A stretch of DNA of 23,641 nt, taken from the IMG/VR virus record IMGVR_UViG_3300028025_003577, positions 1 through 23,641 of that record, one strand, 5' to 3'. Shown in pieces: positions 14,515-19,017 of the stretch (position 1 is the stretch's first letter; each line of letters opens with the position of its first letter). The notes beneath the pieces are model-generated. The model ran no database searches. It was given only the letters and a program-made list of their open reading frames with translations, and was not told the origin of the DNA. This DNA is from a virus. The translations under genes and the position numbers were made by a program.

Positions 14515-14805
14515 ATGGATTATTTAGAAGATTACACAACAAACAACATAACAATACAGGACCTAAGCAAGAAATATAATATATCCGAAAGGCATATAAG
14601 AAAGACTTTCAAGTTAAGAGGTGTAAAAACCAGACACGATCATAAAAAGAAGTCAACTATTACTGCTGACAAAGTATTTGATTTGTTTTTAGCTGATTAT
14701 TTAGGTAATGGTTTAAGTATGCAGCACTACGCTGATAAGTACGGAGTAAGCAAATTTGCTTTATCAAAAAGATTAGAAAAATATTTTAGATATAGAAGAT
14801 TATAG
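14515..14805 (+). CDS. Double helix-turn-helix DNA-binding protein
   Basis: 96 residues with two HTH units in series. Unit one, about residues 10-38: ITIQDLSKKYNISERHIRKTFKLRGVKTR. Unit two, about 62-92: GLSMQHYADKYGVSKFALSKRLEKYFRYRR. Both read S/D-x-(A/L)-x-K-Y-(N/G)-(I/V)-S-x-x-x-(I/L)-x-K-x, typical for homeodomain-like/resolvase-type HTHs. Basic linker KTRHDHKKKS between them. It is flanked on both sides by structured non-coding DNA, and sits between the SSB and replication genes, so it may be a regulator or replication-initiation factor. No catalytic residues are present. Confidence 0.75.
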   Translation: MDYLEDYTTNNITIQDLSKKYNISERHIRKTFKLRGVKTRHDHKKKSTITADKVFDLFLADYLGNGLSMQHYADKYGVSKFALSKRLEKYFRYRRL

Positions 14806-14814
14806 TTATATTTG
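14784..14814 (+). promoter_or_regulatory. Candidate promoter before the three-hairpin RNA
   Basis: TATATTTG at 14807-14814 is a full match to the Bacteroidota -7 element TAnnTTTG. The upstream element is only approximate (TTTTAG at 14784-14789, about 18 bases upstream). A transcript from here would start near 14820, exactly at the first arm of the hairpin element 14819-14922. The site overlaps the stop codon of the HTH gene. Confidence 0.45.
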
Positions 14815-14818
14815 CTTA

Positions 14819-14922
14819 TAATTTCATTTGAAGTCGAGATCAGATGAAATTAAAAATAAGGTTAAACTCACTACTAACCTTGAATCCTGCCAAATCTCGA
14901 CCTGGTGGGATTCTTTTTTTTT
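14819..14922 (+). ncRNA. Three-hairpin structured RNA with complementary loops
   Basis: Three perfect stems follow each other. Hairpin 1: TAATTTCAT (14819-14827) with ATGAAATTA (14844-14852), 16-base loop. Hairpin 2: AAGGTTA (14858-14864) with TAACCTT (14875-14881), 10-base loop. Hairpin 3: GAATCCTGCC (14882-14891) with GGTGGGATTC (14904-14913), 10 pairs including two G-U, 12-base loop, then nine T. Loop 1 contains GTCGAGAT (14833-14840) and loop 3 contains ATCTCGAC (14894-14901), which are exact reverse complements, so the loops can kiss. It is preceded by TATATTTG and followed after 4 bases by the ATG of the DUF4373 gene. Either a free RNA of about 104 nt or an attenuator leader. Not matched to a known class by me. 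Confidence 0.62.
14882..14922 (+). terminator. Intrinsic terminator-like hairpin 3 with T9 tract
   Basis: Stem GAATCCTGCC/GGTGGGATTC (10 pairs, two of them G-U) followed by nine T (14914-14922). It is the same core (CCTGCC ... GGTGGG) as the terminator at 22178-22208. It lies 4 bases before the ATG at 14927, so it could cut off the RNA above or control entry into the replication genes. Confidence 0.65.
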
Positions 14923-14926
14923 AAAT

Positions 14927-15571
14927 ATGAATACATTTTATTTTTCACACGATTACACCGCAAGAAGTGATTCTAAAATTAAAGAATTACTTTATCAGCA
15001 CGGTATTACCGGTTATGGAATTTACTGGTGCTTAATTGAAGATCTTTACTTGAATGCAAACGCATTACCATTTGAATGCGGGCGTATAGCACACGAACTG
15101 CGAACGGATAAAAGTGTAGTTGAAAGTATTATAAAAGACTTTGATTTATTTGAAATTAAGGATGGTTTTTTTAGCAGTCAATCAGTACAAAAAAGGTTAG
15201 ATAAGAGAAATGATAAATCCGAAAAAGCCTCTTTAAACGCTTCTAAGAGGTGGAAAAATGCAAACGCATTACCGAATGAATGCGACCGCAATGCTTTAAA
15301 GGAAAGTAAAGTAAAAGAAAGTAAAGTAAATATAAAGACAGAAGAGTTTATAATTCCTTTAATTGAAGAAGTTGAAAATTACTTTTTTGAGAATGGTTAC
15401 CGAAAAGATGTAGCTAAGAAAGCCTGGAACTATTACAATAATCTTAATTGGAAAAATAGCAAAGGTAAAAAGGTAGTTAATTGGAAAAACACAGTTATGA
15501 ACAATTGGTTCACAGAAGAAAATAAAATTAAAACAGTAGTCAATCATCTTTACTCACCAGTCGTAAACTAA
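14927..15571 (+). CDS. DUF4373 (Lin1244/Lin1753-like) replication protein
   Basis: 214 residues from the ATG at 14927; the frame extends upstream to a TTG at 14828, but that stretch is the structured RNA and the family starts with the FYFSHDYTAR motif, which this ATG gives. Motifs: FYFSHDYTARSDSKIKELLYQHGITGYGIYWCLIEDLYLN, RIAHELRTD, VESIIKDFDLFEI, FSSQSVQKRLDKR, then SEKASLNASKRW, a variable linker with repeated KESKVKESKV, and a C-terminal DnaD-like part (NYFFENGYRKDVAKKAWNYYNNLNWKNSKGK). These proteins act before the replicative helicase, probably as initiator or loader. The stop overlaps the helicase ATG (TAATG). Two DNA repeats inside the gene are described separately. Confidence 0.85.
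   Translation: MNTFYFSHDYTARSDSKIKELLYQHGITGYGIYWCLIEDLYLNANALPFECGRIAHELRTDKSVVESIIKDFDLFEIKDGFFSSQSVQKRLDKRNDKSEKASLNASKRWKNANALPNECDRNALKESKVKESKVNIKTEEFIIPLIEEVENYFFENGYRKDVAKKAWNYYNNLNWKNSKGKKVVNWKNTVMNNWFTEENKIKTVVNHLYSPVVN
15053..15284 (+). repeat. Two 28-bp direct repeats inside the DUF4373 gene
   Basis: AATGCAAACGCATTACC occurs at 15053-15069 and 15257-15273, each followed after 4 bases by GAATGCG (15074-15080 and 15278-15284). The units are 204 bp apart. Each contains an inverted repeat AATGC-AAAC-GCATT. They encode NANALPxECxR twice in the same frame. Such iteron-like repeats inside an initiator gene recall the lambda ori within O. An alternative is simple protein-level duplication. 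Confidence 0.6.
15302..15330 (+). repeat. Short tandem repeat GAAAGTAAAGTAAA (x2)
   Basis: GAAAGTAAAGTAAA at 15302-15315 and 15317-15330, a 15-bp period. It encodes KESKVKESKV, a low-complexity linker commonly seen in this protein family, so the repeat may come from the protein linker rather than from a DNA function. Confidence 0.7.
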
Positions 15572-16518
15572 TGGAATTTATTAAAAACTATTCGGATGTT
15601 TCAGATGAAATAAACGATTTATTTGAAAAAGGTTATGCAAGTGGCGAGAAAGTAGGATTCTCACAAATGGATCAACTAATATCCTTTAAAAAAGGTGCAA
15701 CTTCTTATATCTACGGAACTCCTGCAAGTGGAAAGTCAGAATTTTGGTGGGAATGTCTTATCAACCTATCAAAAAAGAAAAAGTGGAAGCATTTAATCTT
15801 CTCACCGGAAACAGGAACACCTGCTGAAATATTTGCAGAGATTATTCATAAGTGGTCCGGTAAGCCTTTTCACGATTTAGACGGTAATAAACTTTCAAGA
15901 TTAACCCAAAGTGAAATGTTTAGAATTGGTCAAGAAGTTAGCCAATACTTTTACATAATGGATACAGGAGTAAAAGATATTACTTTAGATGACTTTCACC
16001 AAGCAGTTGAGAAATACGGAGTTAAGTTTGACACAATTACTACTGATCCATTTAATGAGGTCAAGCACGAGTTACAAGGCGAATCTATCAATCTTTATAT
16101 GGCAAGAGTTTTAGGGAAGATTAGGATGTACGCAAGAGAGCATAACTATCACCATACGATTATTATGCACGCTGCAAGAGAAGCAGGAGTTAAAAAAGAA
16201 GTAGACGGTATATCTTTTTATCCCCCTACTGATCCAAGATATATTGATAATGGCGAAACTTCCTTTAGAAAAGGCGAACAAATGATTTGTGTTTGGAGAT
16301 ACCCTAAAGGCTTAAAAGACGAATTTGGAACACCTTATCAAATAAATCAGGTTAAAATTATAGTCCAAAAAAGTAAACCTAAAGGAATAGGTGCTTGTGG
16401 AGAGTTTGATTTATTCTTTGATACTTGGCGAAACTGCTACTACGAAGAAATTAACGGAACTAAAAGTTATGCTGGAAATTATGTTACATTTGAACAACCA
16501 AAAATATTACCTTTTTAA
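15571..16518 (+). CDS. DnaB/RecA-fold replicative helicase-like ATPase
   Basis: 315 residues. Walker A at 49-56 (GTPASGKS), acidic E80 region (FSPETGTPAEIFAEI, the E after strand 2 is the usual catalytic Glu of SF4), Walker B-like strand about 153-160 (FDTITTDPFNE, with D159), and HAARE at 200-204 as the sensor His. Between them lies a stretch with KLSRLTQSEM. The C-terminus (QVKIIVQKSKPKGIG) fits the SF4 strand that ends in an R/K finger. No primase or DnaB N-terminal domain is present, so it is a short helicase acting with the DUF4373 protein just upstream. Coupled by TAATG at 15569-15573. Confidence 0.82.
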   Translation: MEFIKNYSDVSDEINDLFEKGYASGEKVGFSQMDQLISFKKGATSYIYGTPASGKSEFWWECLINLSKKKKWKHLIFSPETGTPAEIFAEIIHKWSGKPFHDLDGNKLSRLTQSEMFRIGQEVSQYFYIMDTGVKDITLDDFHQAVEKYGVKFDTITTDPFNEVKHELQGESINLYMARVLGKIRMYAREHNYHHTIIMHAAREAGVKKEVDGISFYPPTDPRYIDNGETSFRKGEQMICVWRYPKGLKDEFGTPYQINQVKIIVQKSKPKGIGACGEFDLFFDTWRNCYYEEINGTKSYAGNYVTFEQPKILPF

Positions 16519-16712: not shown

Positions 16713-17043
16713 GCCATTAAAAGCTATTTTAGAAGACGAATTAGAAAAAAGGATTCCAAAGACTGATTTTAGACAAGCTACTTTGTTTAGGATAGCAGAT
16801 TTACTCCTAGTGATGCAAATAAAGCTATTAGAGGCAAACAAAACTAAAATTGATAGTAAGACCTACCAAGATAATTTGAATGCTTTAGAAACGCTTAATT
16901 TAGCTTTTGTGATGATGACTGATTTACAAGGAGAAAATTCTTTATTACGAAGTGAATTATTAACTTTGAGGCACGAAGCTGAAATAATTATAGCAGAGTT
17001 AAGTGAAAGAGTTAAAACACTTGAAATGATAGATGACTTGTAA
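16687..17043 (+). CDS. Coiled-coil hypothetical protein
   Basis: 118 residues from ATG 16687 (a GTG two codons earlier, at 16684, gives one extra residue). Mostly helix: LSEPLKAILEDELEKRI, IADLLLVMQIKLLEANKTK, and a C-terminal coiled coil (LLRSELLTLRHEAEIIIAELSERVKTLEMI). No catalytic motif. It closes the helicase cluster, after which a 181-base gene-free gap begins. Confidence 0.65.
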   Translation: MRKLHELSEPLKAILEDELEKRIPKTDFRQATLFRIADLLLVMQIKLLEANKTKIDSKTYQDNLNALETLNLAFVMMTDLQGENSLLRSELLTLRHEAEIIIAELSERVKTLEMIDDL

Positions 17044-17101
17044 AAGATGTATAGGTGCAATCAATAAGATTTAACACCTACAATATTTACAAGGCGTGTA
17101 A

Positions 17102-17131
17102 TGTCCTGTTTTTTAACGAATTAACTGGACA
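17102..17131. promoter_or_regulatory. Inverted repeat TGTCC...GGACA, operator or hairpin candidate
   Basis: TGTCCTGTT (17102-17110) and AACTGGACA (17123-17131) are an inverted repeat with one T-T mismatch, with TTTTAACGAATT between. The rest of the gap 17044-17224 is A/T-rich with no ORF. The TGTCCT half-site is also the repeated unit at 20313-20369, so both may bind the same protein. Confidence 0.45.
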
Positions 17132-18926: not shown

Positions 18927-19017
18927 AGTGAGGTGGCGAAATGGTAAACGCAAGGTACTTCAAACGGGAAGTGTACATACCCTACCTAAAATACAGGTTC
19001 AAATCCTGTCCTCACTA
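18927..19017 (+). tRNA. tRNA-like gene with enlarged anticodon arm
   Basis: Acceptor stem AGTGAGG (18927-18933) pairs perfectly with CCTCACT (19010-19016), discriminator A. D-arm GCG-AAATGGTAAA-CGC (18936-18951). T-arm ACAGG-TTCAAAT-CCTGT (18993-19009) is perfect. The middle is abnormal: AGGTA (18953-18957) pairs with TACCT (18983-18987), but the loop between has 25 bases instead of 7. Removing 18 bases would leave a normal arm with CTTCAAA and a UCA anticodon. The Leu-type D-arm alternatively suggests a class II tRNA, but no good 17-nt anticodon arm is found. No CCA is encoded. Identity is unsure; it may be a decayed tRNA or tRNA mimic. Confidence 0.7.

Follow-up and report, generated by a model that had tools for sequence, protein, structure and literature searches.

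Does the short stretch of DNA in front of the replication operon of an IMG/VR virus encode an RNA and, if so, what would such an RNA do? The window, by which we mean the whole 23,641-nucleotide stretch that was analysed, is a 23.6-kb IMG/VR virus contig in which a module of three hairpins lies between a gene for a 96-aa helix-turn-helix (HTH) protein and the replication operon. A sequence-only reading had proposed that this module is either a discrete phage RNA or an attenuator governed by pairing between its first and third loops. Here we report that these loops are ever matched among relatives while their letters change, which suggests an RNA switch controlling viral replication; the matching may tell the RNA of one virus from that of another.

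Results

All features of the locus lie on the plus strand. The HTH gene (14515–14805), an open reading frame with weak HTH matches, ends with a stop codon adjoining the promoter, whose -7 element TATATTTG (14807–14814) fits the Bacteroidota consensus TAnnTTTG. In the minimum free energy (MFE) fold, hairpin H1 (14819–14852, 13 bp) stands near the predicted 5' end of the RNA and carries loop 1, GTCGAGAT (14833–14840); it is followed by H2 (14858–14881, 7 bp) with a 10-nt loop, AACTCACTAC, and by H3 (14882–14913, 11 bp), the terminator stem, whose loop 3, ATCTCGAC (14894–14901), is complementary to loop 1. A T9 tract (14914–14922) forms the U-tract of the intrinsic terminator, and the ATG at 14927, 4 nt past it, opens gene 1 of the replication operon (14927–15571), a Lin1244/Lin1753-type replication initiator (Pfam PF14297, E 3.7e-11; PHROG 2562, replication initiation protein). 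Gene 2 (15571–16518) encodes a DnaB-like helicase (weak match to Pfam DnaB_C; PHROG 239 and 19), and genes for an Erf annealase and a single-strand-binding protein lie upstream. The sequence-only reading had placed the promoter-like element, both loops, the T9 tract and the ATG correctly, and its three stems of 9, 7 and 10 pairs are indeed present, slightly longer in the MFE fold (13, 7 and 11). Further along the window, a conserved stretch at 17032–17110, also found in L003, L016, L056, L074, L080, L081 and L214, reads as a short CxxC peptide that ends at AUUUAA and is open further in the -1 frame; it represents a small protein with a frameshift or else a hairpin.

The window RNA folds at -32.2 kcal/mol (z = -6.1; all 200 dinucleotide shuffles gave higher values), and the 8-mer ATCTCGAC occurs at two places in the whole window, one per strand, which are the two loops (expected 0.14). 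Across the 59 complete loci described below, the MFE was in every case lower on the sense strand (mean -29.2 vs -23.8), and G-U pairs are present in H1 and H3. Both observations favour the RNA strand as the one that folds. When the 4227 families of Rfam 15 were searched, only a tRNA elsewhere in the window passed its gathering cut-off; the best weak scores at the RNA site were 22.7 bits (cut-off 60) and 11.8 bits (cut-off 100), in line with the earlier failure to assign the module to a known class. A 91-nt tRNA is called by Rfam at 18927–19017 (58 bits), where ARAGORN gives no tRNA.

To define the distribution of the module, first relatives were recruited via the H1 sequence and the replication protein. 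Exact-pattern scans with all loops left free then found the promoter-H1-H2-H3(terminator) module of about 105 nt in 72 IMG/VR contigs, and no types beyond this set; the complete loci number 59, a 60th being truncated. Most of these RNAs belong to class A and the remainder to class B, that of the window. The stem sequences differ between the classes, but the stems themselves are kept and loops 1 and 3 are still complementary. Indeed, the two loops match at 8/8 positions in 51 of the 59 loci and at 7/8 in the other eight. A pattern scan of genome contigs returned 99 matches, none with paired loops in the module architecture, and two genome searches (R1, 299 Flavobacterium and 395 Bacteroidia genomes; R2, 399 Flavobacterium genomes) gave chance terminators only. 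Distant relatives of the replication gene (L027-L033, L035, L037-L039) are without the RNA.

The loop pair changes in concert. In 28 aligned class A RNAs, four of the eight pairs of the kissing helix carry double changes and none a single-sided change, with 99.5% of cells paired; the covariation score of the whole structure was 0.200 against 0.088 for shuffled alignments (0/500 shuffles as high), and sliding the loop partners abolished the signal. When 47 distinct RNAs of both classes were combined, loop positions 2, 3, 5, 6 and 8 co-varied (5/8). H1 has three pairs with compensatory double changes among relatives, and H3 shows compensatory as well as G-U/G-C changes. The cells in these counts are sequences rather than evolutionary events, but the loop type still requires 12 changes on the RNA-body tree, which is poorly resolved. 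Some 15 natural types of kissing-loop pair were found, with cognate pairs at -8.0 to -12.7 kcal/mol and most non-cognate pairs weaker. One locus, L067, has loop 1 GUUGUGAG and loop 3 CUCACUAC with a single mismatch, one loop altered and the other unaltered; it is apparently an intermediate between two loop types. Chance had been judged an unlikely origin from the window alone, and it is excluded because compensatory change has kept both the stems and the pairing of the loops in homologues.

BLASTN searches of phages with the window RNA or with a class A RNA as query gave no homologue, and cultured phages were therefore reached by a covariance model. Over a 3.5-kb region of phage morran9-1, the class A model gave a hit of 32.8 bits (E 4e-6). 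The site has the same promoter, a terminator hairpin and an H1 whose loop is of similar make-up (in most cases AA plus 8 nt), and its loop 1 GUGAGAAG is exactly complementary to loop 3 CUUCUCAC. Starting from the morran9-1 RNA, BLASTN matched many cultured Flavobacterium phages, and RNA-bearing members belong to Muminvirus, Lillamyvirus, Ficleduovirus and Elemovirus. Other loop pairs among them are GUGAGACG/CGUCUCAC in filifjonk and the lillamy-like group, GUGGAACG/CGUUCCAC in mumin and snusmum, GUAGAGAG/CUCUCUAC in the F. columnare phages, UGAGAGC/GCUCUCA and GUGAGAUG/CAUCUCAC in elemoA variants, and GUGGAGG/CCUCCAC in elemoE/F. Five well-aligned cultured RNAs show double changes at five of eight kissing pairs and six of ten H3 pairs (covariation 0.539 vs 0.270), so that covariation of the loop pair is seen in both sets of phages and the stems are not lost in relatives. 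The cultured and IMG/VR sets share promoter, H1, terminator and matched loops, with sequences that are mostly different, and a model built from the cultured RNAs recovers the positions of the window RNA and of class A RNAs, weakly. The case for common descent of the two sets is made by architecture, position and weak model scores. The cultured RNAs lack H2, which is therefore an optional part. The terminator of the F. columnare phages is interrupted (CUUAACUUUUU), and some cultured phages have a wider gap between U-tract and ATG. Hypothetical proteins that public records place over the RNA in L235 (1011–1154, morran9-1 gp042), L244 (1170–1265) and L249 (1444–1563) are probably spurious.

The position of the module ties it to the operon. 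In all 59 complete loci exactly one TAnnTTTG lies before or within the RNA and none from there to the ATG, and the same element precedes the RNA in cultured phages. Barring an unrecognised promoter, the replication mRNA would therefore have to read through H3. First genes fall into five kinds, namely four types of replication initiator or helicase loader and an unrelated 166-aa ORF, yet the ATG stands 4–9 nt past a U7-9 tract. The 166-aa ORF (MKFLEKDLEDY...), which lies between the RNA and the replication gene in L050, L051, L078, L080 and L225, had no match in Pfam or PHROG; its ATG keeps the same distance from the U-tract as those of other first genes. On the upstream side, other HTH variants or a ParB-like gene take the place of the HTH gene in relatives with this kind of RNA. 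A ParB-like gene precedes class B RNAs in L089, L088, L090 and L229, which have the same upstream gene, and promoter and RNA thus form a cassette independent of the upstream neighbour.

Loop types are exchanged between close relatives. Where both flanks of two loci are at least 90% identical, the loop type nevertheless differs in 46 of 71 pairs; L214 and L056, for example, are about 100% identical upstream, 85% in the RNA and mostly 97–100% downstream. On the tree of the upstream gene the loop type is random (37 changes vs 36.9 with shuffled labels), whereas on the poorly resolved RNA-body tree it is clustered (12 vs 40), which indicates that the RNA is swapped as a cassette. Among cultured phages, elemoA_7-9A and elemoA_2-5C, with the same listed host, are near-identical just upstream and downstream of the RNA, yet their RNAs are 68–83% identical with a new loop pair. 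About 200 nt ahead of the swapped RNA this pair has a second divergent stretch, a tRNA region; between the elemoA phages L249 and L250 such a stretch (about 1200–1360), just upstream of the RNA, holds a tRNA-Met in one phage and a tRNA-Ala in the other. We also considered loops matched to the host and rejected this idea, since LMO9 is the listed host of phages with three different loop types; the loops are thus not simple matches to a host RNA. At the level of sequence, the structure of the RNA, its conservation, its position before the replication operon and its exchange as a cassette are established. The loops behave like interchangeable specificity tags on a swapped cassette, but cassette exchange by itself does not prove selection for specificity.

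Large H2 loops, where present, resemble loop 3 of another class. The window H2 loop holds CTCACTAC (14867–14874), the loop-3 sequence of another loop class; within the window its partner GTAGTGAG lies on the minus strand only, so that no partner of the H2 loop was found there. In shuffle tests, which were post hoc and cover few cases, window H2 AACUCACUAC fits GUAGUGAG (p 0.003), the mimic in L002-L005 is AACUUACUAC (p 0.017), and H2 AUCUCAAC of L008, L014 and L043 fits GUUGAGAG (p 0.015–0.026). Every mimic is directed at loop 1 of other classes, the first loop to emerge during transcription.

Discussion

Several known systems bear a partial likeness to this RNA. The CI RNA of satellite phage P4 pairs with segments of the same transcript and prematurely ends transcription of the replication operon (PMC4825925), and c4 RNA underlies heteroimmunity between P1 and P7 (PMC12197685). 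Like P4 CI, and c4/IsrK/SeqA, the Flavobacterium RNA would be a small RNA from a replication-operon leader with complementary segments on one transcript, here loops 1 and 3. However, CI is a product of processing that, in a lysogen, pairs with seqA and seqC, whereas the partners here are hairpin loops of one short RNA that carries its terminator, and the phages appear to be lytic; the Rfam models of P4 CI, c4 and IsrK did not match the RNA at gathering or at E<=5. In pT181 attenuators kissing hairpins govern a terminator and set specificity, and changes in them yield orthogonal pairs (PMC4878617, PMC3753616). Both systems have a rep-gene leader with an intrinsic terminator (H3 with U7-9 in our 59 loci), but pT181 uses a separate antisense RNA from the opposite strand, whereas a single sense RNA carries both loops here. 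We rejected a pT181-like antisense RNA because no conserved minus-strand TAnnTTTG lies near the RNA (15 of 59 loci, mostly at one site inside a single rep-gene type). In ColE1, kissing loops of RNA I and RNA II control replication with incompatibility specificity (PMC9458437); there an antisense pair acts on a primer, unlike a sense leader before a protein initiator. None of P4 CI, pT181 and c4 shares the anatomy of the RNA. We regard P4 CI RNA, the nearest in function, and pT181 attenuation as partial analogues; the RNA belongs to neither group. Large structured RNAs with loop-loop contacts between copies include phi29 pRNA, which comes from a phage, GOLLD and ROOL. The likeness would lie in these contacts, which covary in GOLLD and ROOL (PMC12286853); size, fold and genomic context are unlike those of the Flavobacterium RNA.

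We hold with moderate confidence that the module is a phage-specific structured RNA of about 105 nt, acting as leader and attenuator of the replication operon and as a terminated small RNA, with self-recognition between its loops. Of the earlier choice between a discrete RNA and a loop-loop attenuator, the data support the persistent stems, the conserved promoter and terminator and the covarying loop pair; we infer from these features that the RNA is transcribed, ends at H3, permits expression by read-through and is affected by loop pairing, possibly in trans. Transcription would start at the promoter and mostly end at H3, with initiator and helicase made from read-through only. Loop 1 would emerge first, and its pairing with loop 3 would compete with or reshape H3 and so set termination. 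The terminated RNA would build up with template number, and its loop 3 could occupy loop 1 on newly made transcripts of like type. The outcome would be type-specific feedback on the replication genes, and co-infecting phages that share the loop type might be excluded. Computed folds contain no mutually exclusive antiterminator stem, and the route from loop pairing to a change in H3 is thus conjecture.

A bolder form, which we offer only tentatively, is that terminated leader RNA finds loop 1 on nascent leaders of its own type and shuts the replication operon, that loops diversify and cassettes swap as an escape from such exclusion, and that H2 mimics counter competitors. Prophage immunity was dropped as the main idea: 16 contigs examined carry no integrase, and Mumin-type phages are lytic and without lysogeny genes (PMC7077304), so that any exclusion would act in lytic infection.

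Sequence covariation cannot separate pairing in cis from pairing in trans. Two further readings are each improbable in our judgement. One is a stand-alone small RNA that multimerises, loop 1 to loop 3 between molecules, into dimers or rings like those of phi29 pRNA or the GOLLD/ROOL cages, the operon being merely the place where it is encoded. Intermolecular contact would give loop covariation too, as with the covarying kissing loops of GOLLD and ROOL that turned out intermolecular (PMC12286853), and promoter and terminator delimit a discrete RNA. Pairing in cis is moreover sterically strained: by rough geometry a stacked H1-kiss-H3 spans 90 A against a linker reach of 60–96 A, so cis kissing is feasible but may need up to 4 H1 bp melted, and pairing could be mainly intermolecular. 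However, an ATG 4–9 nt past the terminator before five kinds of first gene ties the RNA to downstream expression, pRNA, GOLLD and ROOL are all much larger and more complex, and self-assembly does not require swapped cassettes with many loop types. The other, to which we give the same low weight, is a constitutive cis element, in which kissing stabilises the leader or terminator and fixes the level of read-through with no action in trans. All structural and positional results are compatible with it, but it leaves the many loop-pair types without a reason and explains neither cassette exchange between near-identical phages nor H2 loops that copy loop 3 of another class. Least plausible by far is a role at a replication origin, as an RNA-based origin or primer or as inverted repeats in the DNA: the initiator and helicase genes adjoin and mycobacteriophages have RNA-based origins (PMC7157519), yet an initiator protein is encoded by these phages, the terminator, the G-U pairs and the better pairing of the sense strand point to RNA, and DNA repeats about 53 bp apart, the spacing of the loop pair, would not need the stems.

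To conclude, we present a previously unnamed RNA family at the replication operons of cultured and uncultured Flavobacterium phages, although an earlier description may exist outside the open-licence literature that was searched. As hosts and phages are in culture, the RNA is directly testable. If the loops act in trans, lytic phages would own an RNA identity system comparable to plasmid incompatibility, with a specificity code that could be read from sequence.
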